DNA of 64,000 nucleotides from the NCBI RefSeq assembly GCF_003970675.1, contig NZ_CP034562.1, positions 1,178,001 to 1,242,000 on the forward strand, read 5' to 3'. The stretch is from Flammeovirga pectinis (lineage in GTDB: Bacteria > Bacteroidota > Bacteroidia > Cytophagales > Flammeovirgaceae). The notes under the pieces were generated by a model. That model did not search any database, was not told the origin of the DNA, and was given only the letters and a program-made list of their open reading frames with translations. A program made the position numbers and the translations under genes. Shown here piece after piece: positions 8,868 to 37,338 of the stretch (positions are counted from its first letter, which is position 1; every line of letters begins with the position of its first letter).

Positions 8868-8897
8868 TTTTAGGATTCGAATAAAAATATATAGAGA

Positions 8898-9857: not shown

Positions 9858-9933
9858 AAGTAGGGTATTTGCCCTTACGATATATTTTTGGTGTAATTGT
9901 TTACTCAAAGTATTTCTTGAGGCTTTATTACTT

Positions 9934-10314: not shown

Positions 10315-10349
10315 ATTAATTAATTATAGTTATTTGGAAAGTTAATAAT

Positions 10350-19898: not shown

Positions 19899-21467
19899 TT
19901 ATTTGTTTAATTTTTTCACATCTTCTTCAACTTTATTTAAACGTTGAAGGTCTTTCATTTGCTTAAACATATCGTAACCAATTTTATCTGCCCTAGCCGC
20001 TGCAGGTTGGAAAGGATAATTGGGTACAGTTTTTACAAACTTTTCTACTTGTTCACCAATAGAACCAAAGAGCCACATATTTTCAACATACCATTTAAAG
20101 GCTGTTTTTGATTGATCTTGTGCCATCTCAAAAGGATCAAGTTTTAAATTGACGACTTTAGGAAAGGCAGGAACCATTCGGTAAGCTTCAGACATGTCAC
20201 CTTCTTGAATAGCAAAACTTACTTTCCATTCTTTCCATCGCACCGCATTCATATCACCAGTAGAAGAGAAGTAATAAAATGTTTCTCTAGGCGACTCTTT
20301 TGCTTCACCAGAAAGATAGTCTGTTAAATCATATCCATCTAAATGTACTTTCCAAGTTTTGCCATTAGCCTCATAACCGTTTTTTACATCTTCAACAATG
20401 TTTTCTTGACCAGCAGCAGCTAATAATGTAGGCATCCAATCCATATGAGAAGCCATGCCGTCATATTTTGTACCTGGTTTAATAGTACCAGGCCATTTTA
20501 CAACACATGGAGCACGGAAACCACCTTCCCAAGTAGTACCTTTATCACCTTTAAAAGGAGAAATACCACCGTCAGGCCATGTAAATTTTTGTGTGCCATT
20601 ATCCGTAGACCAGATAACAATTGTGTTGTCATCAATACCAAGTTCTTCTAATTTATCTAATAAAACACCTAAGTGTCTGTCGTGCTCTACCATTCCATCT
20701 GCATATTCACCAACTCCAGTAACACCTTCAGACTCATTTTTTAAGTGCGTCCAGATATGCATTCTTGTAGAATTAAACCATAAAAAGAAAGGCTTATCTT
20801 CTTTTGCTGCTTTTTCCATAAAAGAAGTAGCACCTTCTAATAATTCATCATCTATTGTTTCCATGCGTTTTTTAGTAAGAGGTCCTGTATCAGAAACTCT
20901 ACCATCAGCATAAGAATGTATGACACCTCTTGGGCCATATTTCCTTTTAAATTCTTCGTCTTTTGGGTAGTAATAAGATTCTGGTTCTTCTTCTGCATTT
21001 AAATGATACAGGTTACCAAAGAACTCATCAAAACCATGTTCTGTCGGTAAATGTTCATCACGGTCACCTAAATGGTTTTTACCAAACTGACCAGTGGTAT
21101 ACCCTTCTTCTTTAAGTAAATCTGCAATTGTTGGTGCCCATTCAGGAATACCATGAGGCGACCCTGGTAGACCAATTGTAAGCAATCCCGTTCTAAAAGG
21201 TTCTTCACCTAAAATAAACGATGCTCTACCTGCTGTACAACTTTGCTGAGAATAATAATGTGTAAATAGACCACCTTCATTGGCAACTTTATCAATATTT
21301 GGAGTTTGATACCCCATCATGCCAAGGTTATATGCAGATACATTGGAAATTCCAATATCATCACCCCATACCACTAATATATTTGGTTGCTTATTTTTAG
21401 CAGAACTATTTGTAATTGTAAATAATAAGGAGAATAGACTGAAGCTAAAGTATAGTATCTTTTTCAT
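19899..21467 (-). CDS. Secreted arylsulfatase, S1 family
   Basis: The 522-residue protein has a signal peptide (1-23) and the sulfatase signature CTAGR (Cys77 to Arg81). Cys77 is expected to be converted to formylglycine by an anaerobic or FGE-type maturase encoded elsewhere. Metal-binding Asp36-Asp37 (VVWGDDIG), GQFGKNHLGD and IVIWSTDNGTQ are in place. S1 sulfatases desulfate sulfated polysaccharides of marine algae or host glycans. The gene diverges from the cellulase gene across 1 kb. No other sulfatase or carbohydrate-binding gene is in the same unit, so the substrate is open. The product lacks a lipobox and is probably periplasmic. Confidence 0.92.
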   Translation of the reverse strand: MKKILYFSFSLFSLLFTITNSSAKNKQPNILVVWGDDIGISNVSAYNLGMMGYQTPNIDKVANEGGLFTHYYSQQSCTAGRASFILGEEPFRTGLLTIGLPGSPHGIPEWAPTIADLLKEEGYTTGQFGKNHLGDRDEHLPTEHGFDEFFGNLYHLNAEEEPESYYYPKDEEFKRKYGPRGVIHSYADGRVSDTGPLTKKRMETIDDELLEGATSFMEKAAKEDKPFFLWFNSTRMHIWTHLKNESEGVTGVGEYADGMVEHDRHLGVLLDKLEELGIDDNTIVIWSTDNGTQKFTWPDGGISPFKGDKGTTWEGGFRAPCVVKWPGTIKPGTKYDGMASHMDWMPTLLAAAGQENIVEDVKNGYEANGKTWKVHLDGYDLTDYLSGEAKESPRETFYYFSSTGDMNAVRWKEWKVSFAIQEGDMSEAYRMVPAFPKVVNLKLDPFEMAQDQSKTAFKWYVENMWLFGSIGEQVEKFVKTVPNYPFQPAAARADKIGYDMFKQMKDLQRLNKVEEDVKKLNK

Positions 21468-21513
21468 AGTATATTATTTTATATTTGTTTGACTTTGAAC
21501 TAAATCAACAATA

Positions 21514-21544
21514 CAAATGTAAAAACTCTACTTATTATAAAAAT
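21514..21544 (-). promoter_or_regulatory. Promoter candidate for the sulfatase gene
   Basis: On the minus strand TACATTTG (21521-21514) matches TAnnTTTG, with a TTT element 19 bases upstream. It lies about 47 nt before the sulfatase start. Confidence 0.55.
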
Positions 21545-21617
21545 TGACCTATGATAAGAAGTCTATTTCGGCTTTTTAGTGTTATTATTAGTGAACAATG
21601 TTATCGGTAACTACTTG

Positions 21618-21647
21618 TTGATCTGATAACTAAATGATTTATTTTTG
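21618..21647 (+). promoter_or_regulatory. Consensus Bacteroidetes promoter far upstream of the cellulase
   Basis: TTG (21618-21620), 19 bases, then TATTTTTG (21640-21647): an exact TTG-N19-TAnnTTTG match pointing toward the cellulase gene, but about 870 bp before its ATG. Confidence 0.55.
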
Positions 21648-22519
21648 CATTAAAAAATTGTTTGTTTAGAAGATTTTTTATTAAATTGCTAATGTTAAAA
21701 TGTAAACCACTAGTACCAGCTAAAAATAAATAGAATTTCAATAAAAACTCAAATCAACTAAGATAATGAAATGAAATAGTTAAAGGATGGTTATGTGTTA
21801 ACATCCTTTGGACAACTACGAACTTAGCGTTATAAATGAAAATTAAATAAATAGTCTTATAGAATAGGCTATTAAAAGCTTGTAATCGGTAATTATCTAA
21901 ATAAGAATTCTCTATTTGAATAGTAGAGGTTATTTGTCCAAATTAATTGTAATTATTAATGTAATGAAAGATCACTACTGTGTTTTTAGGTAGTACTATT
22001 CACTGTACAACAATATTTCTTATTATAAATAAGATCTTTCAAACACTCATTTTTAGCTACAATTATACTTTGTATTTCATTTTTTATGGAATATAGCTAA
22101 CACTCCTTTTGTAAATTATTATGAAGCATAATGGTGCATGATCAGCTTTAGTTTTTTAGACTATTGACGATAAAATGTAGCATAGCCTATAGAATGTCGA
22201 TCCCTGGTATATAGTGGTTTATTGACATTGATTAGACATACTGTAGGTTTTATCACACTATTTTATTTGATAGTTAAAACACATTGTGCTTCTAAAGTAC
22301 TTAAGCAAGTAGTCAAAAACTAGTTTCTCTTTTTTGATCATCTATTTACAAAACTATTTAGTATAGCATTTTACGTTAGCGCTCTTAAAATTGAGTGATG
22401 GATAACTATTGCCTATTTTTTTAGGATGAGCTATACTGAAAAGAACATACAATAATAGTTATTTAAATGGCTTGAGTGTTTCACTTCTATTCACACACAC
22501 ACTTATAACAAAACTAATT

Positions 22520-25500
22520 ATGAAATTTATTTCTAAGTTAGGTGTAGTATTTCTACTGCATTTATCTTGTTTAAATCTGTATGCCCAACAATTTAATTAT
22601 GGGGAAGCATTACAGAAATCTCTCTTTTTCTACGAAGCACAACAATCTGGAGAACTACCTGAATGGAATAGGGTAAGTTGGCGAGATGATTCTGCTTTAA
22701 TGGATGGCGCAGATGTAGGGCACGATCTTACCGGTGGTTGGTACGATGCAGGTGACCATGTTAAATTTGGTTTCCCGATGGCTTACAGTGTTACTGTACT
22801 TGCTTGGGGAGCAATAGAATATGAGGATGCTTATGCTCAAAGTGGGCAATTACCAATTATAAAAAGAAATCTTCGTTTTGTCTTAGATTATCTGATAAAG
22901 TGCCATACAGCACCAAATGAGTTATATGGACAAGTTGGCGCAGGCGGCCCTGATCACGCCTATTGGGGTTCTTCTGAGGTAATGACCATGGATAGACCTG
23001 CGTATAAAATTGACACTTCTAAGCCAGGTACAGATTTAGCAGCAGAAACAGCAGCAGCAATGGCAGCATCGAGTATTCTTTTTAAAGATAACGATCCTGC
23101 ATACAGTACGTTGCTTCTTCAACATGCTAAACAACTGTATGAATTTGCAGACAATTACAGAGGCGTGTATTCTGAAGCAATTCCAGATGCCGCAGGTTTT
23201 TATAGATCGTTTAGTGGTTATCAAGATGAGCTTGTTTGGGGTGCTGCTTGGTTATATAGAGCAACAAATGAAACTGCCTTTTTAACAAAAGCAGAAGCGG
23301 AATACCAGTTATTATCTAATGAAGGCCAAAGTGATGAAAAAGCTTATGGATGGGGTTTAGCATGGGATGATAAATCTTATGGAGCATATATTCTAATGGC
23401 TGAATTAACAGGAAAAGAAGAATATAAGCAAGATGCTGAACGTCACTTAGATTATTGGACAGACGGGTATAATGGTGATAGAATCACTTACAGCCCAGGT
23501 GGACAAGCACACTTAGTAACTTGGGGGTCTTTGCGTCATAGTTCAAATACATCATTCTTAGCCTTTGTATATAGCGATAAAATAACTACTTCTAAAAAAG
23601 CAAAATATCATGATTTTGCCGTACGACAAATCAATTATGCTTTAGGTGATAATCCAATCAACCGTAGTTTTATGGTAGGTTTCGGGAATAATCCTGCAAA
23701 TAATCCTCACCATAGAGCAGCACATGGAGCATGGGCAAATAATTTACAATACAAACCAGACGATGCAAGTCATATTCTTTATGGAGCACTTGCTGGAGGT
23801 CCAGGTACAGCAAATGATCAATTTGAAGATGATAGAGGTGATTACATTGCCAATGAGGTTGCATGTGATTATAATGCTTGTTTTACAGGAGCATTAGCAA
23901 GAATGTATGCAGAATATGGTGGATCACCTTTAGCGAATTTTCCTATTGAAGAAATACCGACTAGAGCAGAAATTAGATCTGTATCTAAATTCAATAGTAA
24001 TAATAGTACAAGTAGTACAGTAAGGGTTTTAGTGCAAAACAGAACGGCATGGCCAGCTAGGATAACTGATAAATTGAAGTTCCGTTATTTCTTTGATATC
24101 ACTGAAGCAGTAGATGCTGGTTATTCTATCGCAGATTATGATGTAGAATTAAGTTATGCTCAAGGTAATGCAACTTTGGATGTAAAAGCTTGGGATGCCT
24201 CTCAAAATATTTATTATGCAGAGATTTCACTAGAAGGAGAACAAATTGCTCCAATTGGTGATCCTGCTTTTAGGAGGGATGCTCAAATTAATGTGAAAGT
24301 AAAATCAGGTGTTCCTTATGATACTTCAAATGACTGGTCTGCATTAGGATTAGATGCTGAAGCAGAAACGCCAAGAATTCCTGTTTATGATAATGGTATC
24401 TTGGTATTTGGTGAAGAGCCAGGTGGAGGAAACACACCATCTGCATCTTTTACTGCGAATGTAACAGAAGGATATGCACCTTTGGAGGTTAGTTTAGATG
24501 CTTCTGCTTCTTCAGATCCGAATGGTGATAATTTATCTTACACATGGGATTTAGGAAATGGTGAAACATCAACGCTTGTAGCTCCTTCGGTGACTTATAC
24601 TCTACCAGGTGTGTACACTATTGAGTTGACAGTTAGTGATGGACAAAATGTCTCTTCTCTAGTTTCTAAATCAATTGTAGTAAATGGAGTTGTTATTCCA
24701 GAATTAAAAGCATCGTTTACTGCTTCCCTAACTTCAGGAACAACACCTTTATCAGTAACTTTTAATGCTTCATCTTCTACGAATAATTTAGATACTAATT
24801 TAAGTTATGCATGGGATTTTGGAGATGGTACAGTAGGTAGTGGGTTATCAGTATCGCATACATTTACTGAAGTAGGAGAATTTACTGTTACATTAACTGT
24901 TACAAATACTGACGGTGAAGCTGATATGATAACATCTTCGGTTACTGTTTCAGAAGTAATCGAATCAGATTGTACGTTTGGAACACCATTAAGCAGTGGA
25001 ATAGCTTCTTTAGTGAACTTAAAATATGAACATATTCATGTAGTAGGAAACGGTGGACCAGACCTCTCAAATATAAGAGATTTCACGATCAACTGGGATG
25101 CTGAAAACAATGGCTTATATCAATTCTCAATGAATACAGCCAACGGTTCTCCTTCATGGTTTATTGATTTATTAGGAGGCTTAACTCATAATTTAAATGC
25201 AGCTAGTCCTTCAATTACAATTACAAGCTCAGGTATATCAGGTCTTGATGGTGCTTATTGGACTGCGAAAGATGGAGATAACTTTGTCTTAGTTTCAAAA
25301 ACAGCAGGATTTACAATTTATTTTAGTACTTCTGCTGCGACACCAGATTGTGGAGATGTAATTGATCCTGAAGAAAATACAGCACCTGTAGCCGTAATTT
25401 CAACAGATAAAAACAATGGAAATAAACCACTTACTGTGAATTTTGACGGTTCAGGTTCTACAGATGCAGACGGAGATGCTTTATCTTATTTATGGGATTT

Positions 25501-28500
25501 CGGTAATGGAAGTACTAAAGAAGGAGTTTCTGTTAGTCATATATTTACTGTAGTTGGAGAATACGAGGTTATGCTGACAGTAACAGACACTGAAGGAGCT
25601 TCTGATTTAAAAAGCACAACAATAATTGTTACAGATAAAGATGTACCACCTGTAGAGGGTGATTGTACATTTGGCACACCACAAAGTACGTCCCTTTCTG
25701 GAGTATCTACTGATGCATTTAATAATATCCATGTTTTAGGAACTGGAGGTCCAGATCTTTCTAACATAAGAGATTTTACAATGAATTGGGATGCCGAAAA
25801 TAATGGTTTATATCAATTCTCATTCAACACAAATAATGGGTCACCAAGCTGGTATATAGATTTGTTGCCAAATGTTGCCCACTCTTTATCAGTTGCTCAA
25901 CCTTCTTTAACAATTACTAGTTCTGGAATTAGTGGTTTAGATGGTGAATATTGGGTAACAACTGATGGTGATAATTTTGTATTGGTTTCTAAAGCAAATG
26001 GATATACTATTTATTTTAGTAATTCATCGAATGCTCCAGAATGCGGTACTGTTGATCCAAATGAAAATCAAGCACCAACAGCTTCTATTACTACTAATAA
26101 ATTAAGTGGTAAAGCACCTTTAGGTGTAACTTTTGATGCCTCAGATTCAGAAGATGTAGATGGAGATACGTTAACTTTTGCATGGGATTTTGGTGATGGT
26201 ACATCAGAAACTGGAGTAGTAATTCCTCACACTTATTCAGTAGTAGGAACGTATAATGTTTCCCTGACAGTAACAGATACGGAAGGTGCGTCAGACGAAG
26301 CAGTAATTTTAATTACGGTATCAGAAGACGATATTATTATTGATCCACCTACAGGTGATAACAAATATATTGATCGTTTTGTAGAGATGAGAGACATTTA
26401 TTATGACCCTGCGAATGGTTATTTTAGTGCAGATGGTTCACCTCACCATTCTATAGAAACATTAATAGTAGAAGCTCCAGACCATGGGCATGAATCTACG
26501 AGTGAATTGTATTCTTATTGGATGTGGTTAGAAGTAATGCACGGTCGTATATCAGGTGATTGGGAGCCTTTAAAAGAAGTATGGAGAAAAACAGAACAGT
26601 TTATCATTCCATCAGCTTTAGATCAACCTAACAACAGCGCTTACAGTGCAACTAATCCTGCTGCCTATGCTGCAGAACATCCACTTCCATCAGGTTATCC
26701 TTCAAAATTAGAATTTGGAGTATCAGTGAATGGAGATTATGTTTCTGATGATTTAAAAGCAGCTTATGGTACATCAGATATTTACCAAATGCATTGGTTA
26801 TTGGATAATGATAACTTCTATGGTTATGGCAATAGAGGTGATGGTATAAGTACTCCTTCTTACATCAATACATTCCAAAGAGGTGAACAAGAATCTGTTT
26901 ATGAAACAGTTCCGCATCCATCATGGGAAAGTTTTGATTGGGGTAGTGCAGAAGGTGGTTTCTTACCATTATTCACACAAGATGCGAGTTATTCTGAGCA
27001 GTGGAGATACACAAGTGCTCCAGATGCAGATGCAAGAGCAGTACAAGTAATGTATTGGGCATTAGAATATGCAAAGGAGCAAGGTGCTAACATAAATGAT
27101 TTAGACTTGGATAAGGCTTCTAAAATGGGTGATTATCTACGTATTGCAATGTTTGATAAATACTTCAAGCCTTTGGGAGCACAATCACCATCAGCAACTT
27201 CTCAAACGAGTTATGATAATGCACATTACTTAATGTCATGGTATATGTCATGGGGTGGTTCTGCAGACAGTTCTGCACCTTGGGCATTTAGAATTGGTTC
27301 TTCACATTGTCACTTTGGCTACCAAAACCCAATGGCTGCTTACGCTCTTTCTCAAATAGATGAAATGCAACCTATTTCTCAAAATGGAGCAAGAGATTGG
27401 AATGAAAGTTTACAACGTCAGATGGAATTCTATACTTGGTTACAATCAAGTGAAGGAGCAATTGCAGGTGGAGCAACAAATAGTTGGAATGGTGATTATA
27501 GTGCTTATCCAGTAGGGAAATCTACGTTCTATGATATGGCATTTGATGTTCACCCAGTTTATCATGATCCAGGTTCTGGAGGATGGTTTGGCTGGCAAGC
27601 ATGGTCAATGGAAAGAGTTGCAGAATATTATTATATCAGCAATGATCCAATGGCAAAAGCACTTATTGAAAAATGGGCAGCATGGGTAGTTGATATAGTG
27701 GTGTTAGTAGGCGAAAATGATTTTGATATGCCTGCAGGATTAGAGTGGACAGGAGAACCTGATACATGGAATGCTAACAATCCTGGAGACAATAGTGAGC
27801 TTCATGTAGAAGTAGTAAGCTATAATCATGATTTAGGTATAGCAGCTTCAACCGCAAAAGCATTAACTTATTATGCGGCTGCAACAGAAAAACACGCTGT
27901 TTTGGATACTGCTGCTAGAGATTTAGCAAGAGAAATTTTGGATAGAATGTGGGTAACCTACCTAGATGAAAAAGGTGTGGCTTCTTTAGAAGAGAGAGCT
28001 GATTATACAAGGTTCTTTGAAGAAGAAGTGTATATCCCATCGAGTTTCAGCGGTACTACAGCAACAGGTGCTACAATTGAACCGGGTGTTACATTCTTAG
28101 ATATTCGTCCTCAATACAAAGATGATCCTGAGTTTGCCCGTTTAGAAGCCGCTTATAATGCAGGTGAAGTATATACACAGAAGTACCACAGAGGTTGGGC
28201 ACAGATAGAATTTGCCTTAGCAAATGCAGAATATGGTTTCTTCTTCGGAGACGAAGACAGTGTAGAAAGTTCATCATTGAGAACTGCTACAGTAAATGCA
28301 TTATCTGATACAGGTGAGTTATCTGAAGCACTAACAATTACAGTTAGTCCGAACCCAACAGAACATACTTTACAGGTTGCCTCAAATAAGCAATTAGAAA
28401 ATACTGTAATAAGAGTATATAATTTGATGGGTAAAATGTTATATGCTAAAGAAATTGATGCTGTAAATTCACAGTTTATGCAATTGTCTTTTAGTCATTT

Positions 28501-28579
28501 ACCATCAGGGCCTTATATTTTAGAACTTACTCATTTATCATCGAATGAGATTGTAAGGAAAAAAATTATTAAAAAGTAA
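22520..28579 (+). CDS. T9SS-secreted bifunctional cellulase GH9-CBM3c-PKD/X-GH48
   Basis: The ATG at 22520 is chosen over a TTG 48 bp upstream because it starts a proper signal peptide (MKFISKLGVVFLLHLSCLNL, cut near YAQ). The chain has 2019 residues. GH9 spans about 24-465, with base region YDAGDHVKF (Asp76, Asp79), HHRAAHG, and acid Glu446 in ANEVACDYNACFTGALA. A CBM3c-like module lies at about 480-627. Four PKD domains follow (about 640-723, 729-812, 955-1040, 1184-1269), with two copies of an unknown domain between them (about 817-943 and 1048-1175). GH48 spans about 1280-1910, with acid Glu1325 in EAPDHGHESTSEL. A T9SS type A sorting domain closes it (about 1940-2019: SPNPTEHTLQV, VYNLMGKMLYA, LPSGPYILEL). 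GH9-CBM3c is a processive endoglucanase layout and GH48 a reducing-end cellobiohydrolase, so both attack crystalline cellulose. The catalytic layout recalls Caldicellulosiruptor CelA. Confidence 0.95.
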   Translation: MKFISKLGVVFLLHLSCLNLYAQQFNYGEALQKSLFFYEAQQSGELPEWNRVSWRDDSALMDGADVGHDLTGGWYDAGDHVKFGFPMAYSVTVLAWGAIEYEDAYAQSGQLPIIKRNLRFVLDYLIKCHTAPNELYGQVGAGGPDHAYWGSSEVMTMDRPAYKIDTSKPGTDLAAETAAAMAASSILFKDNDPAYSTLLLQHAKQLYEFADNYRGVYSEAIPDAAGFYRSFSGYQDELVWGAAWLYRATNETAFLTKAEAEYQLLSNEGQSDEKAYGWGLAWDDKSYGAYILMAELTGKEEYKQDAERHLDYWTDGYNGDRITYSPGGQAHLVTWGSLRHSSNTSFLAFVYSDKITTSKKAKYHDFAVRQINYALGDNPINRSFMVGFGNNPANNPHHRAAHGAWANNLQYKPDDASHILYGALAGGPGTANDQFEDDRGDYIANEVACDYNACFTGALARMYAEYGGSPLANFPIEEIPTRAEIRSVSKFNSNNSTSSTVRVLVQNRTAWPARITDKLKFRYFFDITEAVDAGYSIADYDVELSYAQGNATLDVKAWDASQNIYYAEISLEGEQIAPIGDPAFRRDAQINVKVKSGVPYDTSNDWSALGLDAEAETPRIPVYDNGILVFGEEPGGGNTPSASFTANVTEGYAPLEVSLDASASSDPNGDNLSYTWDLGNGETSTLVAPSVTYTLPGVYTIELTVSDGQNVSSLVSKSIVVNGVVIPELKASFTASLTSGTTPLSVTFNASSSTNNLDTNLSYAWDFGDGTVGSGLSVSHTFTEVGEFTVTLTVTNTDGEADMITSSVTVSEVIESDCTFGTPLSSGIASLVNLKYEHIHVVGNGGPDLSNIRDFTINWDAENNGLYQFSMNTANGSPSWFIDLLGGLTHNLNAASPSITITSSGISGLDGAYWTAKDGDNFVLVSKTAGFTIYFSTSAATPDCGDVIDPEENTAPVAVISTDKNNGNKPLTVNFDGSGSTDADGDALSYLWDFGNGSTKEGVSVSHIFTVVGEYEVMLTVTDTEGASDLKSTTIIVTDKDVPPVEGDCTFGTPQSTSLSGVSTDAFNNIHVLGTGGPDLSNIRDFTMNWDAENNGLYQFSFNTNNGSPSWYIDLLPNVAHSLSVAQPSLTITSSGISGLDGEYWVTTDGDNFVLVSKANGYTIYFSNSSNAPECGTVDPNENQAPTASITTNKLSGKAPLGVTFDASDSEDVDGDTLTFAWDFGDGTSETGVVIPHTYSVVGTYNVSLTVTDTEGASDEAVILITVSEDDIIIDPPTGDNKYIDRFVEMRDIYYDPANGYFSADGSPHHSIETLIVEAPDHGHESTSELYSYWMWLEVMHGRISGDWEPLKEVWRKTEQFIIPSALDQPNNSAYSATNPAAYAAEHPLPSGYPSKLEFGVSVNGDYVSDDLKAAYGTSDIYQMHWLLDNDNFYGYGNRGDGISTPSYINTFQRGEQESVYETVPHPSWESFDWGSAEGGFLPLFTQDASYSEQWRYTSAPDADARAVQVMYWALEYAKEQGANINDLDLDKASKMGDYLRIAMFDKYFKPLGAQSPSATSQTSYDNAHYLMSWYMSWGGSADSSAPWAFRIGSSHCHFGYQNPMAAYALSQIDEMQPISQNGARDWNESLQRQMEFYTWLQSSEGAIAGGATNSWNGDYSAYPVGKSTFYDMAFDVHPVYHDPGSGGWFGWQAWSMERVAEYYYISNDPMAKALIEKWAAWVVDIVVLVGENDFDMPAGLEWTGEPDTWNANNPGDNSELHVEVVSYNHDLGIAASTAKALTYYAAATEKHAVLDTAARDLAREILDRMWVTYLDEKGVASLEERADYTRFFEEEVYIPSSFSGTTATGATIEPGVTFLDIRPQYKDDPEFARLEAAYNAGEVYTQKYHRGWAQIEFALANAEYGFFFGDEDSVESSSLRTATVNALSDTGELSEALTITVSPNPTEHTLQVASNKQLENTVIRVYNLMGKMLYAKEIDAVNSQFMQLSFSHLPSGPYILELTHLSSNEIVRKKIIKK

Positions 28580-28602
28580 CGAGTAATAGATAGTCCAAAT
28601 AA

Positions 28603-28640
28603 AAAAAGACACCCATAGCCTTGCTGTGGGTGTCTTTGTT
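28603..28640. terminator. Bidirectional terminator after the cellulase gene
   Basis: AAAGACACCCATAGC / GCTGTGGGTGTCTTT form a stem with a CTT loop, flanked by A- and T-rich sequence. It is shared with the convergent His-rich protein gene. Confidence 0.88.
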
Positions 28641-28671
28641 CTTAATCTTTTTAAATTAAAAGGAGTGTTTA

Positions 28672-29121
28672 TTACCAAGACTTTATAAAGTTGGTATAAA
28701 TAGAAAGCTGATTTTCTTTTAGTACATTTTGTACTTCAGTATCCCTTTTCTTTTCTAATTCTTTACATTTTTTATTCCGTTGCTCTTCATCTAGATTGGT
28801 TGTTTTATTTAAATTAAGATAAAAATTTAAATACGCTTTTTCGATACCAGATTTTTGTGAGGTATTTAAGCCAACACTTACCCCTAACGTTTTTGCATCT
28901 GTAACTGCTTGTTCATTAGGATTATCAATTACAACATTAGTATAATCATGATGGTGACTATGACAATGTTTGTCGTGGTGATGTTTCTTCTTTTTTGGTT
29001 TTTTCTTTTTATCATGCTTGTGATCATGATGATGGTGCTTGTCGTGACCTTTCTTTTTACCTTGAGCATTAGAAAAATTGACAACTAATAACGCTATCAC
29101 AGTAAATAATAGTACTTTCAT
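28672..29121 (-). CDS. Exported histidine/lysine-rich protein
   Basis: The 149-residue product has a signal peptide (MKVLLFTVIALLVVNFSNAQ) followed directly by a ~40-residue stretch with 15 histidines, one cysteine and many lysines and aspartates (GHDKHHHHDHKHD, KKKKHHHDKHCHSHHHD). This is a likely binding site for Zn, Ni, Cu or Co. The C-terminal ~85 residues are predicted helical (LDEEQRNKKCKELEKKRDTE, VLKENQLSIYTNFIKSW), vaguely like small periplasmic Spy/CpxP-type helical proteins, but I see no clear LTxxQ motif. It is convergent with the cellulase gene. Role unknown: metal buffering in the periplasm is inferred. Confidence 0.7.
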   Translation of the reverse strand: MKVLLFTVIALLVVNFSNAQGKKKGHDKHHHHDHKHDKKKKPKKKKHHHDKHCHSHHHDYTNVVIDNPNEQAVTDAKTLGVSVGLNTSQKSGIEKAYLNFYLNLNKTTNLDEEQRNKKCKELEKKRDTEVQNVLKENQLSIYTNFIKSW

Positions 29122-29399
29122 TTTTTTGCTTGAAGTTTTAAATAGATGAATCTAGTAGTATTGAATAGGATTGAATTATTCTAGTCATTAAATAATTCAA
29201 TTATAAAGTAGTATTATTCAATAATGAAGCCAAAAAATTAACGCAAATAAAAATTGAATTAGTTAATACTTAATCTAATTTCTGATAATATGTAATACTC
29301 TTTAAATTTCTTAACTTTTCTTGTAACCGATTGCATTGATAATCACTATTATGAATCAAAAAGATATTGTAACTTACTTACTATAAGTAATTACACAAT

Positions 29400-32087
29400 A
29401 TGAAAAAGACTATACACTTTATTTCCTTGCTGTGTTTATCAGCAGTATTATTTACAGCCTGTGATTCGGGTAAAGACGAACTCTTATATTCGTCGTCAAC
29501 GTATAAGGTTTATCGAGATCATGTAACCCAAGGTGATTTTGAAGCGAAAGTTATTTCTTCTAAGGAAATGACATCAAATTATAAAAGTCCATTACAAGAT
29601 GCCTACAGTAGAGCTGTAGAGTTTAAATTTAGTATTAATGGCAAAGACGATGAGCTTACTTATGGCATTAATCATAGAATAGTGATTCACCCAGAAAATG
29701 GAAGTTTTACAACTAAAACTATGAAGTTTGGTGAGCCTTGGGCAATGACTGAGAAAGTTGATCAAATGGATTGGTTGGAGAAAAATACAAAAGTGACTTT
29801 CAAATTAGATATGTCACCTGTATTAGACGCTTTTAAAAAACAAGGATATTATACAGATATTCACGGAGAGAAAATTTCAAAAGAAGATTTTAAAGGTGTT
29901 TTTATTGCCGGAGGTAGTGCACCTCTACGTTGGGATTTTGAAAACCTAAGTGAAAGAGAACAATTATTGGATAAAGATGGAGATGGTATTTATGAAATAA
30001 CTTTCATGATGAATGCCCCAGATCCAGAAAAGCAAACATCACCTGTATGGAAATCTTCTAAAAAGATAGATAAATACCCAACTTTTACATCAGATATTCC
30101 TTTAGTTGATGCCTTGTACAATTTAGCATTAAATGAACTAGTAGCAGATTCTGAAGCAGACGGTACTTTTAGAACAGGGAAAGAATGGGGTGGAGTTTGG
30201 ACAAGAGATATTAGTTATTCTATTGTACTGAGTTTATCAATTTTAGACCCTGAAAGAGCAAAAACATCTCTTAGAAAAAAAGTAAAAAGAAATCGTATTA
30301 TTCAAGATACAGGTTCTGGTGGAGCATGGCCAGTTTCTTCTGATAGAGTAACATGGGCATTAGCGGCTTGGAATGTTTATACAACAACAGGCGATAAAGA
30401 TTGGTTGAAAGAAGCATTTAAGGTAATCACAAATACAATAGATGATGATATGTATATTGTTTACGATAAGCAAACCGGACTTATGCGTGGAGAATCATCA
30501 TTTTTGGATTGGAGAAAACAAACTTACCCTAGGTGGATGGATAATGGAGATATCTATCGTTCAATGAATTTAGGGACTAATGTAGTGCATTATGAAGCAA
30601 TGAAAATTGCAGAAAGAATGGCAAACGTATTAGGTAAATCTAAAGAAATGAACCAGTATGGTGAGTTAGCAACAAACCTGAAAAATGCAATAAACACACA
30701 TCTTTGGATGGATGATAAAGGGTATTATGCACAATATTTATACGGTCGTAATACTATGATGCTATCTCCCAAGTTTGAAGCTTTAGGAGAAGCACTAGCT
30801 GTTTTATTTGATGTAAGTGATAGTAAAAGAAGTGCAGAAATTGTAACTAAATCTCCAATTGTTCCTTTTGGAACAGCATGTGTTTACCCTCAAATACCAG
30901 GTATTCCACCTTACCATAATAATGGAATATGGCCATTTGTTCAAGCGTACTGGAACATTGCAGCAGCAAAAACGGGTAATGGAACAGCGTTAGAACAAGG
31001 TTTAGCATCAATCTATAGACCTGCAGCTTTGTTCTTAACGAATAAAGAGAACTTTGTGGCAGAAGATGGTGATTACATGGGTACAGAAGTTAATTCTGAT
31101 GAAATGTTATGGAGTTTATCTGGAAACATGGCTATGATTTACCACGTTTTTTATGGTATATCGATTGATAGAAATGGCGTATTATCATTTCATCCAACAG
31201 TGCCAGCTGCATATAAAGGGGTTAAAGAATTAAAGAACTTAAAACTTTGGAACAACGAATTATCTATTAAATTGAGTGGTTTCGGGAATAAAATCAAAAG
31301 TTTTACAATTGATGGAGTTCAAGACGATGCCCATGCAATCTCTTTAGAAAAAGGAGGAAGACATTCGATAGAAATAATTCTAGCAGATAATGATATTACA
31401 ACGGGAACATCATCTAATAAAGTAGCAAATCGTTTCCATTTAGAAACACCTCAAGCTGAATTAAAAGGAGAGGAACTGACATGGGAAAAAGTTGAAGGTG
31501 CTGTAAGCTATGAAGTGGTGAAAAATGGTAAGGTGATCCAAAAGGTTTCTGGAACAACTTTCACTATTCCAAAAGCAGTATCTTTAGAAGAGTATGCCGT
31601 TCAAGCAACTGATAAAACAGGGTATGCATCTTACGTTTCAGAACCAATTAATGTGGGACCTATTGTTGCTAAAAACGTTTCTAGTATATCTAGAGCTAAC
31701 AAAAAAATAGCTATTGATGGTGCACCGTCTGGAACTTTAGAACTATCTAAATCGAGAAATAAAAAAGTTAATTTTACTATTTCAGCAAAAGAAGCAGGAA
31801 CTTATTTTATATGGTTTTCTTATGCAAATGGGAGTGGACCTTGGAATACAGATAACAAATGTGCTATAAGAAGTTTACAGATTAATGGTGAAGAAGCAGC
31901 TACAATTGTAATGTCTCAGAGAGGTACGGACGAATGGTCTAGTATTGGGCTAACAAACAGAATGAAGGTTACCCTTAATAAAGGAAAAAACAAAGTATCT
32001 GTTCAGTTTGAAGGGCATAATGAAAACATGAATGTAGATGTAAATACTGCGTTAATTGAGAATGTTTACTTTGGTAAAGCGGAGTAA
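29400..32087 (+). CDS. Six-hairpin glycosidase-like lipoprotein with C-terminal beta-sandwich domains
   Basis: The 895-residue product has a lipobox (LFTAC, Cys21) followed by DSGKDE, which may act as a surface-export signal. An N-terminal beta-rich part (about 30-215) is followed by an (alpha/alpha)6 barrel (about 225-590) with EWGGVWTRDISYSIVLSLSI, GSGGAWPVSSDRVTWALAAW, GESSFLDWRKQTYPRW, IPPYHNNGIWPFVQAYWNIA and VNSDEMLWSLSGN. This pattern recalls COG3408 and MGH1-like glycosidases, but I cannot assign a GH number. The C-terminal part has a fibronectin-like segment (about 675-755) and a CBM6/35-like sandwich (about 760-893). It has its own terminator. The substrate is unknown; neighbours suggest plant or algal polysaccharide. 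Confidence 0.75.
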   Translation: MKKTIHFISLLCLSAVLFTACDSGKDELLYSSSTYKVYRDHVTQGDFEAKVISSKEMTSNYKSPLQDAYSRAVEFKFSINGKDDELTYGINHRIVIHPENGSFTTKTMKFGEPWAMTEKVDQMDWLEKNTKVTFKLDMSPVLDAFKKQGYYTDIHGEKISKEDFKGVFIAGGSAPLRWDFENLSEREQLLDKDGDGIYEITFMMNAPDPEKQTSPVWKSSKKIDKYPTFTSDIPLVDALYNLALNELVADSEADGTFRTGKEWGGVWTRDISYSIVLSLSILDPERAKTSLRKKVKRNRIIQDTGSGGAWPVSSDRVTWALAAWNVYTTTGDKDWLKEAFKVITNTIDDDMYIVYDKQTGLMRGESSFLDWRKQTYPRWMDNGDIYRSMNLGTNVVHYEAMKIAERMANVLGKSKEMNQYGELATNLKNAINTHLWMDDKGYYAQYLYGRNTMMLSPKFEALGEALAVLFDVSDSKRSAEIVTKSPIVPFGTACVYPQIPGIPPYHNNGIWPFVQAYWNIAAAKTGNGTALEQGLASIYRPAALFLTNKENFVAEDGDYMGTEVNSDEMLWSLSGNMAMIYHVFYGISIDRNGVLSFHPTVPAAYKGVKELKNLKLWNNELSIKLSGFGNKIKSFTIDGVQDDAHAISLEKGGRHSIEIILADNDITTGTSSNKVANRFHLETPQAELKGEELTWEKVEGAVSYEVVKNGKVIQKVSGTTFTIPKAVSLEEYAVQATDKTGYASYVSEPINVGPIVAKNVSSISRANKKIAIDGAPSGTLELSKSRNKKVNFTISAKEAGTYFIWFSYANGSGPWNTDNKCAIRSLQINGEEAATIVMSQRGTDEWSSIGLTNRMKVTLNKGKNKVSVQFEGHNENMNVDVNTALIENVYFGKAE

Positions 32088-32324: not shown

Positions 32325-33818
32325 ATGGCTTCAATAGGAGTAATAGGATCTGGCTTCACAGGATTGTGTGCAGCAATAACTTTAGCAGACAAAGGACATG
32401 ATGTTCATGTTTACGAAAAAAACGAAATGGCAGGAGGCCGTGCGAGAATATGGCAAACAGAAGGCTTTACTTTTGATTTAGGTCCATCTTGGTATTGGAT
32501 GCCGGATGTATTTGAAAATTTCTTTGGTAAATTTGGTAAAAAAGTAAGTGATTATTACGACTTAACACGTTTAGATCCATCTTATAGAATTTATTGGTCA
32601 GCAAATGATTATACAGATATCCCTGCACAGTTAGATAAACTAGGTGATTTATTTGAATCATGGGAAACGGGAGCAAGAGAGAAATTATTTGATTTTATTG
32701 ATGAGGCAGAAATCAAATACAGAATAGGTATGGATGACTTTGTACATAGGCCATCTTATTCTTTTATGGATTTTGCTGAATGGCAAGTCATTAAAAATGT
32801 CCCTCGTTTACATTTAATCTCAGATTTTGCATCTTATGTACGTAAGTATTTTCAACACGAAAAGATCCTAAAAATATTAGAATTTCCTGTTTTGTTTTTA
32901 GGCGATGTAGCTAAAAGAACACCTGCCTTATATAGTTTAATGAACTATGCAGATTTAAAATTAGGGACATGGTATCCTAAAGGAGGAATGGCAGAAGTAG
33001 TAGGAGGTTTTGAGAAGTTAGCTTTAGAAAAAGGAGTCGTTTTTCACTTCAATTCGCCAGTAAGTAAAGTGAATTGCGAGGGTAAGAAAATGGTTTCAGT
33101 AGAAGTTAATGGCGAAACTATTCAGCACGACGAATGGGTAGCTTCTTGTGACTACCACCATTTTGAACAGAAATTACTTCCAAAAGCCTATCGCAATTAC
33201 GATGAAAAATATTGGGGGAGTCGTAAAATGGCACCGTCATGTTTATTGTATTACATTGGTTTAGATACTAAGATTCCAAACATACATCATCATAATTTGT
33301 ATTTTGATACCCCTTTTGATGCACATGCAGAAGAAATTTATGATAACCCAGCATGGCCTAAAGATCCATTGTTTTATATCTGTGCTCCATCTGTGTCAGA
33401 CGATTTAATTGCACCTAAAGGAGCAGAAAACTTAATGCTTTTAATACCTGTTGCACCAGGAATGGAAGACACAGAAGAGGTTAGAGAAAAATATTTTAAT
33501 ATATTAGTAGATAGAATTGAAAAATCTACCGGAGTTGATATATCAAAACACCTTGTTGTGAAACGAACTTTTGCTCACAATGATTTTGTTTCAGAATATA
33601 ATGCCTTTAAAGGGAATGCTTACGGACTTTCTAATGTTCTAAAGCAAACGGCCTTCTTGAAGCCGTCAATAAGAATCAAGAAACTCGATAATGTACTTAT
33701 GGCAGGGCAGTTAACTGTACCAGGTCCAGGAGTACCACCATCAATTATCTCTGGTGAATTAGTTGCTAGAGAAATCTTAAAAAAGAAATTATCCTTAACA
33801 CCTCAGATTAACGCTTAA
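32325..33818 (+). CDS. crtI: Phytoene desaturase (CrtI type)
   Basis: The 497-residue FAD enzyme converts phytoene to lycopene. It starts with the dinucleotide-binding motif IGVIGSGFTGLCAAITLA and VYEKNEMAGGRAR, followed by GFTFDLGPSWYWMPDVFENF, typical of Bacteroidetes CrtI. The C-terminal bacterial phytoene-desaturase signature is NVLMAGQLTVPGPGVPPSII. It is the first gene of a seven-gene carotenoid operon (gap of 14 bp to crtB). A second desaturase lies three genes on, so this copy is taken as the lycopene-forming one because of its position next to crtB. That split is inference. Confidence 0.93.
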   Translation: MASIGVIGSGFTGLCAAITLADKGHDVHVYEKNEMAGGRARIWQTEGFTFDLGPSWYWMPDVFENFFGKFGKKVSDYYDLTRLDPSYRIYWSANDYTDIPAQLDKLGDLFESWETGAREKLFDFIDEAEIKYRIGMDDFVHRPSYSFMDFAEWQVIKNVPRLHLISDFASYVRKYFQHEKILKILEFPVLFLGDVAKRTPALYSLMNYADLKLGTWYPKGGMAEVVGGFEKLALEKGVVFHFNSPVSKVNCEGKKMVSVEVNGETIQHDEWVASCDYHHFEQKLLPKAYRNYDEKYWGSRKMAPSCLLYYIGLDTKIPNIHHHNLYFDTPFDAHAEEIYDNPAWPKDPLFYICAPSVSDDLIAPKGAENLMLLIPVAPGMEDTEEVREKYFNILVDRIEKSTGVDISKHLVVKRTFAHNDFVSEYNAFKGNAYGLSNVLKQTAFLKPSIRIKKLDNVLMAGQLTVPGPGVPPSIISGELVAREILKKKLSLTPQINA

Positions 33819-33832
33819 TCTTATAATACGCT

Positions 33833-34669
33833 ATGAAAAAAATATATGATGATTTATCATATGATTTGTCTCGGATCATAACTAAAAAATACACTACATC
33901 ATTCGCAATTGGTATTCGCTTTTTAGCTCCTCAACTAAGAAATCCTATTTATGCAATTTATGGTTTTGTCAGAGTAGCTGATGAAATTGTTGATTCCTTC
34001 CATGGTTTCAACAAAGAAGAATTACTCGATGAATTTGAAAACGATTGTTACAAAGCAATCGATACGGGTATTAGTACGAACCCAGTTTTACAATGTTATC
34101 AAGAAGTTGTAAACAAGTACGGAATAGAAAGAGAACTTATTACTCTTTTTATTAAAAGTATGCGTATGGACTTAAATAAAAAGGAGTACTCTGAACAAGA
34201 ATATAAAGACTACATTTTAGGTTCAGCAGAAGTTGTAGGCCTAATGTGCTTACGTGTATTTTTAGAAGGAAATGAAAAAGAATACCAAAGATTAAAGCCG
34301 TCTGCAATGGCTTTAGGTTCTGCTTTCCAAAAAATAAATTTTTTAAGAGATTTAAAAGCTGATGTACGTGATTTAGGAAGAGTTTATTTCCCTAATATCG
34401 ATATTTCTGTTTTTAATGATGAAGTTAAAAAAGAATTAGAAGCGGATATTCAAGAAGATTTTGATGCAGGTTTTGAAGGCATTAAACAACTGCCTAAAAA
34501 AGCTCGTTTTGGGGTTTACTTAGCTTATATCTACTATACGCGTTTATTTAATAAAGTGAAGAAAACGCCAGCCAATGTAATTCTTAAAGAACGTTTAAGA
34601 ATTCCTGATCCTAAAAAATATGCTTTATTCTTCCAATCTTATGTTCGTCATCAAGTAAATATTTTATAA
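33833..34669 (+). CDS. crtB: Phytoene synthase
   Basis: The enzyme condenses two geranylgeranyl diphosphates head-to-head to phytoene. The 278-residue protein shows the first Asp-rich motif in RVADEIVDSFHG, and the second region KINFLRDLKADVRDLGRVYF, the trans-prenyl squalene/phytoene synthase signature. TTSFAIGIRFLAPQLRNPIY at the N-terminus is typical of Bacteroidetes CrtB. It sits between crtI and idi with gaps of 14 and 1 bp. The GGPP synthase (CrtE) gene is not in the window. Confidence 0.95.
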   Translation: MKKIYDDLSYDLSRIITKKYTTSFAIGIRFLAPQLRNPIYAIYGFVRVADEIVDSFHGFNKEELLDEFENDCYKAIDTGISTNPVLQCYQEVVNKYGIERELITLFIKSMRMDLNKKEYSEQEYKDYILGSAEVVGLMCLRVFLEGNEKEYQRLKPSAMALGSAFQKINFLRDLKADVRDLGRVYFPNIDISVFNDEVKKELEADIQEDFDAGFEGIKQLPKKARFGVYLAYIYYTRLFNKVKKTPANVILKERLRIPDPKKYALFFQSYVRHQVNIL

Positions 34670-34670
34670 G

Positions 34671-35201
34671 ATGGAGGAGGTAATATTAGTAGACAAACAA
34701 GATAATCCAATAGGGAAAATGGAGAAACTTCAAGCACACGTTGAAGGTCTTCTCCACAGAGCATTTTCTATTTTTATTTTTAACGAAAATGGAGATTTAT
34801 TATTGCAACAAAGGGCGTTGTCTAAATACCATTCAGGTGGTTTATGGACAAACTCATGCTGTAGCCACCCTAGAGTAAATGAAACTTTAAGCTTTGCTAC
34901 AGAAAGAAGGTTACAAGAAGAATTGGGGTTTACAACTCAAGTAATTGAGATAGATTCAATTTTGTATAAAGCGGCTTTTGGAAACGGTTTAACTGAACAT
35001 GAATTCGATTATATTTTTATAGGTGAATACAATGGATTAGTGGATTTTAATCCGGAAGAAGTAGAGCAAGTGAAATTTATATCAAGAAAAGATTTAGACC
35101 AATGGTTAATAGATCAACCTTCTGATTTTACGGCTTGGTTTCCTTTGTGTTGGGAAAAAGTAAAAAACGAATTAGATAAAAATAGCCGTGCTATAGCATA
35201 A
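34671..35201 (+). CDS. idi: Isopentenyl-diphosphate delta-isomerase, type 1
   Basis: The enzyme balances IPP and DMAPP for isoprenoid synthesis. The 176-residue Nudix-fold protein has the active-site cysteine in TNSCCSHPRVNE (Cys64), the Nudix-like ATERRLQEELGF, and the TEHEFDYIF motif with the catalytic Glu. The start lies one base after the crtB stop, so translation is coupled. It supplies the carotenoid pathway together with IspH, encoded at 47,095 in this window. Confidence 0.95.
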   Translation: MEEVILVDKQDNPIGKMEKLQAHVEGLLHRAFSIFIFNENGDLLLQQRALSKYHSGGLWTNSCCSHPRVNETLSFATERRLQEELGFTTQVIEIDSILYKAAFGNGLTEHEFDYIFIGEYNGLVDFNPEEVEQVKFISRKDLDQWLIDQPSDFTAWFPLCWEKVKNELDKNSRAIA

Positions 35202-35211
35202 CGGCATAGTA

Positions 35212-36666
35212 ATGAAAAAAGCAGTTGTTATAGGTGCCGGAATTGGAGGAATTGCCGCAGCATTAAGAGTAAATAAATTAGGTTACAAAGTAACAGTTCT
35301 TGAAGGTACCTCAATATTAGGAGGTAAATTACGTCAGTTTAAAACGGATAACGGATTTACTTTTGATCAAGGACCTTCATTATTTACATTACCTCATTTG
35401 GTTACAGAACTATTTCAACTGTACAACAAAGAACCTAAAGAATATTTTGATTATACCGAAAATGAGATAGCAACTAAATATTTCTTTTCAGATACTACTG
35501 AGTTTACGGGTTGGAGTGATCCAACTAAATTTGGATTAGCTGTAAAAGAACTTTGGGGAGTTGATATCCACAAGGTATTAAATCAGATTATTGACGATTA
35601 TAAAAAAACGGCTCCTATTTTCTTAGAAAGTGCTCTAACTAACCTTTCAGATCTTTTAAATAAAGATGTAATGAAAGCTTTACCGGTACTGACTAGATTA
35701 GGAATATTTGAATCGCTAAATAAGTTTAATGAAAAGCATTTTAAACACGAGCAGCTTGTTCAACTGTTTAATAGATATGCTACTTATAATGGTTCAAATC
35801 CTTATCAGACTCCCTCAATAATGCGTGTAATTAGTGCACTAGAACATTCTGATGGCGTTTTTTTTCCTAAAGACGGAATGAGAAGTATAGCTACATCTTT
35901 AATTCGTTTAGCAGAAGAGCAAGGAGTGACTTTCTTGACTGATCAAAAGGTGAAAAGTATAAAAACACTAAAAAATAAAATTGTAAGTGTAGCAACAAAT
36001 AATGCAGACTTTTCTGCAGACTTATTTGTTTCTAATGCAGATGTTAATTTCTTTTTGCCAAATGTGGTAGAAGAAAAAGTTCATGTTCCTAAAACCAAGG
36101 AATTATCATCTTCTGCATTGGTATTTTATTGGGGTATAAATCATTCTTTCTCTCAATTAGATTTGCATAATATCTTCTTTTCTGACGATTATAAAGAGGA
36201 GTTTAGACAATTATTTGAGGAGTTTAAAATACCAGATGACCCTACAATTTATGTACATATTAGTAGTAAGATGAATCATAATGATGCTCCAATAGGAGGT
36301 GAGAATTGGTTTGTTATGATTAATGTTCCTGCAGCTCCAGAACTATTTACGAAGGAGTTAATCAAGAAGATTGAAGAAAAAATTATTAGTAAACTTTCTA
36401 AATCATTATCAATTGATTTAAAAAGTAAGATAAGCTATTCTTCTCATTGGACGCCTAAAACTATCGAACAAGATACGATGAGTTGGAAAGGTGCTTTATA
36501 TGGTCTGAATAGTAATAAATTAACGCATGCACTGTATAGACAGAGAAATAAATCATCAAAATATAAAAATCTTTATTTTGTAGGAGGCAGTGTTCATCCT
36601 GGTGGTGGAATACCTCTATGTTTAAATAGTGCAAAAATTGTATCATCATTAGTAGCAAAGACTTAA
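35212..36666 (+). CDS. crtD: Carotenoid 3,4-desaturase (CrtD-like)
   Basis: The 484-residue FAD protein is a CrtI paralogue: VIGAGIGGIAAALRVNKLGY, LEGTSILGGKLRQF, GFTFDQGPSLFTLPHLVTEL, and the C-terminal NLYFVGGSVHPGGGIPLCLN. The HPGGGIPL variant is typical of CrtD and of desaturases acting on already modified carotenoids. Together with the CruF gene immediately downstream it predicts a 1'-hydroxy-3',4'-didehydro end group. The gap to cruF is 4 bp. Confidence 0.85.
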   Translation: MKKAVVIGAGIGGIAAALRVNKLGYKVTVLEGTSILGGKLRQFKTDNGFTFDQGPSLFTLPHLVTELFQLYNKEPKEYFDYTENEIATKYFFSDTTEFTGWSDPTKFGLAVKELWGVDIHKVLNQIIDDYKKTAPIFLESALTNLSDLLNKDVMKALPVLTRLGIFESLNKFNEKHFKHEQLVQLFNRYATYNGSNPYQTPSIMRVISALEHSDGVFFPKDGMRSIATSLIRLAEEQGVTFLTDQKVKSIKTLKNKIVSVATNNADFSADLFVSNADVNFFLPNVVEEKVHVPKTKELSSSALVFYWGINHSFSQLDLHNIFFSDDYKEEFRQLFEEFKIPDDPTIYVHISSKMNHNDAPIGGENWFVMINVPAAPELFTKELIKKIEEKIISKLSKSLSIDLKSKISYSSHWTPKTIEQDTMSWKGALYGLNSNKLTHALYRQRNKSSKYKNLYFVGGSVHPGGGIPLCLNSAKIVSSLVAKT

Positions 36667-36670
36667 TTTT

Positions 36671-37333
36671 ATGCAGGTACGCGAATTTCAAAAAGAAATT
36701 GAACTAACAAATCTTCAAATAACAAAAATACTATTATCAGTATTTTATACTGTAGGTGGTATAGTTGCTTTTACACCTTACAATCAACTTCTACTTCCTT
36801 TCTCACCATTTTTATTATTTACCTCTTTTTTATGTCTTTTTTATTTTGAAGAGGTGAAAAGTAAAGGTGTTATTGGGTGGTTTATTTTTGTGTATATATC
36901 AAGTTTTTTAATAGAATGGTATGGTGTTCATACAGGTATTTTATTCGGAGACTACGTTTACTTAAATAATTTAGGATTGAAATTAGATGGAGTACCCTTA
37001 GTTATTCCCATCAATTGGCTAGTATTAGCTGTTGCAGGTAGTGAATTGATAAATAAATATGTTTCTAAATGGAATAAAATAATTTCGAGTTTTACAGGCG
37101 GAGGGGTTGTCGTAATTCTTGATGTATTTATAGAGATGGTTTGCGAACCTTTAGGTTTTTGGAAATGGTCTCAAGGCATGCCTCCAATGATTAATTATAT
37201 TAGTTGGTGGGTATTTATGAGTATTTTCATTTATATTCGAATAAAGTTTTTCCCTTCAAGGAATCCACTGTCGATTTATTTATATCTAACATTCTTTGGC
37301 TACTTTATTTTACAAGTAATCGCAAATTTTTAA
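36671..37333 (+). CDS. cruF: Carotenoid 1,2-hydratase (CruF type)
   Basis: The 220-residue integral membrane protein has about six to seven helices and the CruF family stretch SSFLIEWYGVHTGILFGDYV, followed by PLVIPINWLVLAVAGSEL, and CEPLGFWKW near the end. CruF adds water across the psi end to give a 1'-hydroxyl. It follows the crtD-like gene by 4 bp and precedes crtZ by 5 bp. The pairing of CruF with CrtD is the established route to 1'-hydroxy-3',4'-didehydro ends. Confidence 0.87.
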   Translation: MQVREFQKEIELTNLQITKILLSVFYTVGGIVAFTPYNQLLLPFSPFLLFTSFLCLFYFEEVKSKGVIGWFIFVYISSFLIEWYGVHTGILFGDYVYLNNLGLKLDGVPLVIPINWLVLAVAGSELINKYVSKWNKIISSFTGGGVVVILDVFIEMVCEPLGFWKWSQGMPPMINYISWWVFMSIFIYIRIKFFPSRNPLSIYLYLTFFGYFILQVIANF

Positions 37334-37338
37334 ATTAT

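Follow-up and report, generated by a model that had tools for sequence, protein, structure and literature searches.

The gene at positions 22520-28579 on the forward strand of a 64,000-nucleotide stretch of Flammeovirga pectinis DNA (contig NZ_CP034562.1, positions 1,178,001 to 1,242,000; the whole stretch is called the window below) encodes a single chain of 2019 amino acids with a GH9 and a GH48 glycoside hydrolase module. We consider it likely that this chain is a secreted, probably cell-surface-tethered endo/exo cellulase for algal cellulose in alginate, assembled independently of CelA from Caldicellulosiruptor bescii. CelA has the layout GH9-CBM3c-CBM3b-CBM3b-GH48 (PMC5831590).

The frame is uninterrupted from the ATG at 22520 to the stop codon at 28579. 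The open reading frame list places the start further upstream, at a TTG (22472), and the ATG gives a signal-peptide-like start that is common to the nearest relative (genome G077). Searches of Pfam, NCBIfam and PDB sequences give the module order signal-like start, GH9-CBM3c, PKD-PKD-X-PKD-X-PKD, GH48 and a type A sorting tail of the type IX secretion system (T9SS). The preliminary description had proposed a single-chain GH9-GH48 cellulase laid out like CelA, with GH9-CBM3c at the N-terminal end and GH48 at the C-terminal end, and the profile searches agree with it: GH9 was placed at residues 27-459 and GH48 at 1283-1909, close to the ~24-465 and ~1280-1910 first read from the sequence. The GH48 profile PF02011 is covered from 1 to 619 of its 619 positions at 921 bits (cut-off 25), and the closest solved GH48 matches are 4fus and 4l0g. 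Pfam CBM3 covers residues 492-569 (E 8e-11). Since residues 24-634 span the entire Thermobifida fusca E4 chain 1js4 (GH9 and CBM3c; 771 bits) from end to end, we assign this module as a CBM3c, as had been proposed, of the E4 type, and not as a separate anchoring CBM3. It follows GH9 and is the only CBM_3 stretch that Pfam finds in the chain. The four PKD domains of the preliminary description correspond to four stretches of Pfam PKD matches, and its T9SS tail to Por_Secre_tail (PF18962) at residues 1943-2017, with a TIGR04183 match above the cut-off of 23 bits. A Pfam scan with E up to 1 found no dockerin and no polysaccharide lyase domain in the chain. Cellulosome membership was rejected for want of a dockerin in that scan.

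The catalytic positions of both halves are intact. Comparisons were made over 39 GH9 rows and 51 GH48 rows, drawn from 46 chosen loci, the window and PDB entries. GH9 residues Asp76, Asp79 and Glu446 are invariant throughout, and the two aspartates fall on E4 D55 and D58. GH48 residues Glu1318, Glu1329 and Asp1502 are likewise invariant. Glu1318 and Glu1329 map to positions 44 and 55 of Cel48F (1f9o), with a gapless stretch assumed from the alignment coordinates (query 3-631 on chain 9-629); we take 44/55 to be the catalytic acid pair and Asp1502 to be the base. The conserved acid had originally been given as Glu1325, a variable neighbour (E in 46, L in 2 and Q in 3 of the 51 rows); the acid is instead Glu1329. 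The dN/dS ratio against G077 is 0.09 for the full chain, 0.022 for GH48 and 0.073 for GH9, as expected of a chain under purifying selection. A degenerate gene was ruled out on these ratios and the invariant catalytic positions.

Both X copies match 9KVN over nearly their full length, and each is 54% identical to the CBM113 of Aquimarina CelAly. PMC13235733 describes 9KVN as UKD, the founding member of CBM113 from CelAly, and reports that this domain binds phosphoric acid-swollen cellulose (PASC), Avicel and alginate beads, and not cellohexaose. The two copies of an unknown domain noted at first are therefore two copies indeed, of a domain that is identified through 9KVN as CBM113. The positions that form the cellulose-binding plane (50/63/64) are Y867, W880 and F881 in copy 1 and Y1098, W1111 and Y1112 in copy 2, and are aromatic in all 34 CBM113 copies compared. 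The basic positions linked to alginate (36/100/110) are all kept in copy 1 (R853, K917, K927); two of three are kept in copy 2 (R1084 and K1158, with Thr1148 replacing Lys). Because the aromatic positions are constant across copies and the basic ones variable, cellulose binding looks general, and alginate binding by the window chain is possible. In the window genome, CBM113 was found in this gene only. Ten genomes reached through the loci carry from 1 to 15 matches each; the highest counts are those of Aquimarina litoralis, with 15, and Aquimarina sp. RZ0, with 11. Between copies 1 and 2, UKD likeness is 66-71% in the window and G077; to the copies of Flammeovirga pacifica and genome G118 it is 57-65%, and the latter reach 71-77% among themselves, also across copies. 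Such likeness may reflect lineage-wise homogenisation or separate duplication.

The fused chain recurs in a restricted set of Bacteroidota. We kept 80 of 316 confirmed stretches with GH48 relatives; 17 contain fused chains, and 13 have GH9 as a separate gene in the same locus. GH48 is rare in the phylum, as the preliminary description had stated: 3 of 395 genomes in a phylum sample exceeded the cut-off, the window's own included, and one more gave a weak match below it. It was found in 10 of 390 sampled genomes of the order, namely 8 of the 9 listed Flammeovirga and 2 of another genus. All eight Flammeovirga chains are fused (the G118 locus ends before the tail, its frame being 1936 amino acids). 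The 21 fused Bacteroidota chains among the loci compared comprise these eight, 10 Aquimarina loci, two genomes of the same class (family code f26) and one uncultured Cyclobacteriaceae. Most have two CBM113 copies; L021, L023, L024 and L035 have one. Elsewhere in Bacteroidota, GH9-CBM3c and GH48 are adjacent genes (L028, L029, L030, L032, L033 and L034), or GH48 occurs with no GH9 in the examined stretch (L025, L026, L031 and L103). In one locus, L022, two neighbouring genes encode one half each, and both products have a signal-like start, their own CBM113 and a T9SS tail. Carriage by plasmids or viruses was ruled out: GH48 relatives appear in 6 of 72,556 plasmid records, all below 60% identity, the sole Bacteroidota record being an unfused GH48-PKD-PKD in Persicobacter (L116), and a pattern scan of viral contigs found none.

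Two further observations concern the relatives. A repeat of about 110 amino acids (DGG..GGPFTFTVGDG.ADNVSG..) is present in several copies in the fused chains L015, L016, L017, L019 and L023, fills most of the L019 spacer and is not found in the window chain. Four of those five chains were scanned with Pfam, and the repeat had no match over a curated cut-off in any of them; L015 gave a weak match to DUF3846 (E 8e-4). In Agarivorans, two GH48 genes stand in a row (L042:4106-7381 and 7842-10790).

The history of the chain was examined with GH48 and GH9 trees built separately from the rows described above. The trees omit most of the Streptomyces, Cellulomonas and Massilia loci among the 80, as well as the L028 GH48, which is broken across two frames. 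In the GH48 tree, the 21 fused chains and the two-gene L022 form one clade of 22 rows (support 100/100), and the tree requires at least four switches between the fused and the separate state. The clade mixes Flammeovirgaceae, Flavobacteriaceae and a Cyclobacteriaceae, while the GH48 branch of Fulvivirga, which belongs to the window's order, falls outside it. This distribution points to transfer of a ready-made chain between Bacteroidota orders. The two halves also differ in their relationships. Five fused chains (L015, L016, L018, L099 and L100) have a distant GH9-CBM3c. L015 and L027 are 88% identical in GH48, 55% in GH9 and 41% in CBM3c; the window and Aquimarina agarilytica (L035) are 81% identical in GH9 and 70% in GH48. 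It seems that the GH9-CBM3c half was exchanged while GH48 stayed. The chain would probably have originated by the joining of neighbouring GH9-CBM3c and GH48 genes, as these are still adjacent in other Bacteroidota, followed by spread between orders and exchange of the GH9-CBM3c half. At a finer scale, the window GH9 is 84% identical in amino acids to that of G077 over residues 24-310 and 98% over residues 311-465. There is a hint that the first two thirds of the window GH9 may have been replaced; a recombination scan of fourfold sites between the two fell short of significance, as 238 of 2000 permutations equalled or exceeded what was observed.

The genome provides the context for a proposed function. 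The T9SS component searched, the translocon protein SprA, is present (TIGR04189, 2352 bits), and at least 141 proteins match a sorting tail, a count that includes one match below the cut-off and covers the 150 candidates scored out of 177. The cellulase-related profiles searched were GH9, GH5, GH48 and LPMO_10. There are three GH9 genes; besides the window gene, two encode proteins with a CelD_N Ig-like domain at the N-terminal end (the longer protein scanned over 1068 of its 1544 amino acids). GH5 gave 12 matches, one under the cut-off, and LPMO_10 (PF03067) none. A single GH48 was found, so the window chain holds the only one in the genome.

We infer the activity, processivity and direction of the chain, its binding, its surface location and the order of evolutionary events from sequence comparison. 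The chain would be exported by Sec and recognised by the T9SS through its C-terminal tail for passage across the outer membrane. Two CBM113 modules on a PKD string would anchor it to insoluble cellulose, and perhaps to the alginate around it. Internal, processive cuts would come from the E4-type GH9-CBM3c head, and the GH48 tail would grab the new reducing ends and move along, releasing cellobiose. With both halves on one chain, endo/exo synergy would be concentrated at one spot. Flammeovirga pacifica WPAGA1, which carries the fused chain (L012), grew on carboxymethyl cellulose (optical density 0.283) and best on alginate (1.868), according to its genome paper, whose main text names GH9 and not GH48 (PMC5385347).

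Several observations weigh against this reading. The F. pacifica test used soluble carboxymethyl cellulose and reached a low density (PMC5385347). Three Fulvivirga strains, each with one GH48 and one GH9 plus GH5, are recorded as cellulose-negative in PMC10113389; their GH48 branch lies outside the fused clade, but the result is a warning that such genes do not guarantee cellulase activity. Removal of the accessory domains from CelAly raised the Km on PASC only slightly, from 50.9 to 54.7 mg/ml, a difference no larger than the stated errors (PMC13235733). The alginate-linked basic positions vary among the 34 CBM113 copies, R36 being present in 14, K100 in 3 and K110 in 25, and L019 is fused yet has no CBM113 match. 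Since a single clade of Bacteroidota GH9 rows was not rejected by the approximately unbiased (AU) test (p 0.25), the exchange of GH9 rests on the pairwise identities, and the tree program warned of long branches meeting at these rows. L022 could be a secondary split or the older state (AU p 0.43). Finally, proteolysis in the PKD string may cut the chain.

That last point leads to the alternative that survives best, in which fusion serves delivery alone, with the PKD string cut after export and the halves acting apart. PKD strings are flexible, and in L022 two separate proteins with T9SS tails carry these halves, but the fused state is found in 21 chains and no cleavage site is known in the PKD string; we regard this alternative as unlikely. 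It is less probable still that the chain acts mainly on another substrate, with GH48 as a chitinase or GH9 cleaving other beta-glucans, and cellulose secondary. Chitinase is among the GH48 specificities listed in PMC11238990, and PMC10113389 files the GH48 of the cellulose-negative Fulvivirga under chitin and records one strain as chitin-positive. Against this, the nearest solved structures, for GH48 and for GH9-CBM3c alike, come from bacterial cellulases, and the reported binding of CBM113 to PASC and Avicel favours cellulose.

The preliminary description also raised the question of CelA, leaving open an independent assembly or a transferred enzyme. Descent from CelA, with a transferred CelA-type enzyme re-fitted with PKD/CBM113 and a T9SS tail, would account for the order of the catalytic halves and the CBM3c after GH9, and the CelA GH48 branch adjoins the Bacteroidota GH48 clade (91/79). 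In the trees, however, CelA pairs with CelS in GH48 (100/100) and groups with 2xfg in GH9 (100/99), where we take particular PDB chains to be CelA and CelS. AU tests, whose groups were defined with the first tree already in view and whose Bacteroidota group includes L022, reject the placing of Bacteroidota and CelA together (p 1e-8 for GH48 and 3e-5 for GH9). They also reject the placing of all fused rows together (p 6e-56 and 1e-76, respectively), and the fused Chloroflexi chain L040 forms a separate branch in both trees. Nor was a second CBM3 found in the five fused Bacteroidota chains scanned with Pfam, the remaining 16 being scanned with the window's own domains only. Descent from CelA is therefore highly improbable. 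Because the AU tests reject joint grouping in both halves, the CelA, Chloroflexi and Bacteroidota chains were most likely assembled separately. Of the two options first offered, independent assembly is thus upheld; transfer falls as regards a CelA-type source and seems to hold for a ready-made chain moving between Bacteroidota orders. The earlier statement that CBM3b spacers had been replaced is misleading, given the rejection of CelA descent and the lack of a second CBM3 in those five chains. Lastly, although the halves are encoded by two genes in L022, a frameshift or assembly error that makes two genes appear as one is hardly conceivable in view of 2019 codons without a stop, the same fused frame in 8 GH48-bearing genomes of the genus and 13 other Bacteroidota loci, and the low dN/dS of the full chain.

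Within the genus, the chromosomal position of the gene differs. In the window and in G077 it lies between a sulfatase gene and a large glycosidase-like gene, and in G155, a draft genome of the same genus with no GH48 match, these two genes are adjacent, about 300 bases apart, so that the site is empty. A second site is common to F. pacifica and G118. Within the 8 kb on each side of the GH48 match, the surroundings in F. aprica, SJP92, EKP202 and OC4 correspond to neither site. The glycosidase gene adjoins SelO, with no intervening sulfatase, in F. pacifica, G118 and G063. As the insertion sites differ, the gene may change place within the genus or may have been gained more than once from close kin. 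Its GC content is 0.374 (window 0.337), and its GC at third codon positions is 0.193, within the range of eight window genes (0.186-0.237). These values lend no support to a recent arrival marked by foreign base composition, and a search for flanking repeats as traces of insertion gave nothing convincing.

Among ten neighbouring proteins scanned there is no SusC/D pair and no cellulase, so the gene looks like a stand-alone gene and not part of a utilisation locus. No Rfam match exceeded the gathering score in 21000-30000. Directly downstream, a gene on the reverse strand (28672-29121) encodes a small, very His/Lys-rich protein of 149 amino acids with a signal-like start; this stretch has no match at the equivalent place in G077. 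Further on, 32325-38488 (+) encodes two FAD amine-oxidase-type proteins, a squalene/phytoene synthase, a NUDIX protein, a carotenoid biosynthesis protein and a lycopene cyclase. The features of the chain are listed in Table 1. The terminator-like hairpin given there is one of 6 such sites in the consensus scan, against 3.1 (sd 2.0) in shuffles, and is by itself no evidence of function.

Table 1. Features of the GH9-GH48 gene, in window coordinates (residue numbers in brackets).
Feature	Position	Strand	Basis
Signal peptide-like N terminus (1-23)	22520..22588	+	Read from sequence; kept in G077 copy
GH9 catalytic module (24-465), Asp76/Asp79/Glu446	22589..23914	+	Pfam E 6e-154; 1js4; invariant 39/39
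CBM3c (485-636), joined to GH9 as in E4	23972..24427	+	Pfam CBM_3; 1js4 aligned to its end
PKD 1	24443..24685	+	Pfam stretch; borders approximate
PKD 2	24698..24955	+	Pfam stretch; borders approximate
UKD/CBM113 copy 1 (818-942)	24971..25345	+	9KVN E 3e-43
PKD 3	25364..25639	+	Pfam PKD_4 953-1034
UKD/CBM113 copy 2 (about 1049-1172)	25655..26035	+	9KVN E 3e-41
PKD 4	26057..26317	+	Pfam stretch; borders approximate
GH48 catalytic module (1281-1912), Glu1318, Glu1329, Asp1502	26360..28255	+	Pfam E 5e-277; 4fus, 4l0g; invariant 51/51
T9SS type A C-terminal sorting domain (1940-2019) and stop	28337..28579	+	PF18962 E 6e-10; TIGR04183 37 bits
Terminator-like hairpin, 15 pairs, directly after stop	28605..28637	+	Consensus scan; inverted repeat I4

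Bacteroidota are listed among the GH48-bearing phyla in PMC11238990, and one GH48 is reported in each of three Fulvivirga (PMC10113389). A full-text literature search, which lay outside subscription papers, preprints and CAZy, returned no description of a T9SS-tagged GH9-GH48 chain. Cytophaga hutchinsonii and Sporocytophaga myxococcoides, the best-known cellulolytic members, are described as having no recognised exoglucanase in PMC6247017. The Bacteroidota lineage described here carries a GH48 of canonical sequence on an E4-type GH9 chain with a T9SS tail. A broader proposal, which we hold tentatively and at somewhat less than even chances, is that the chain is a travelling, modular and surface-anchored analogue of CelA, in which GH48 is kept and GH9-CBM3c swapped, place and host order change, and CBM113 aims the enzyme at cellulose in alginate. 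If true, Bacteroidota would have solved the problem of crystalline cellulose separately, and the GH9...GH48 chain would have been invented independently at least three times, this lineage being one case. The repeated fusions, the apparent swaps of halves and the two-gene L022 offer natural material on the synergy gained by linkage and on the roles of spacers and binding modules. The occurrence of CBM113 without an alginate lyase gives useful context for its cellulose and alginate roles.

Compared with known systems, the window chain resembles CelA in having GH9-CBM3c at the N-terminal end, GH48 at the C-terminal end and binding modules between. It differs in having PKD/CBM113 in place of CBM3b, in its T9SS tail and in the separate ancestry of both halves; its relatives are marine, whereas CelA comes from a thermophile. 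With Aquimarina CelAly, a GH5-PL31 enzyme with UKD/CBM113 and a T9SS tail (PMC13235733), it shares CBM113, the sorting tail, a Bacteroidota host and two catalytic modules on one chain. The catalytic modules of CelAly are a GH5 cellulase and a PL31 alginate lyase, whereas the window chain has no lyase. The whole GH9-CBM3c aligns end to end with T. fusca E4/Cel9A, which in contrast has no GH48, other accessory modules and another route of export. The GH48 genes of Fulvivirga, Saccharicrinis, Labilibaculum and Geofilum fall in the same Bacteroidota GH48 branch as the window (32 rows, 100/98). Several of them have a neighbouring GH9-CBM3c gene, and the separate genes set them apart from the window. 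In Saccharicrinis aurantiacus (L032:5709-10901), a T9SS-tagged chain combines two full GH48 modules with Big_2 and CBM64. The Chloroflexi metagenome-assembled genome BJ8 (L040:4854-9893) also encodes a single chain, GH9-CBM3c-CBM2-CBM2-GH48, which differs from the window chain in its CBM2 spacers, in having no sorting tail in the Pfam scan and in its separate place in both trees.

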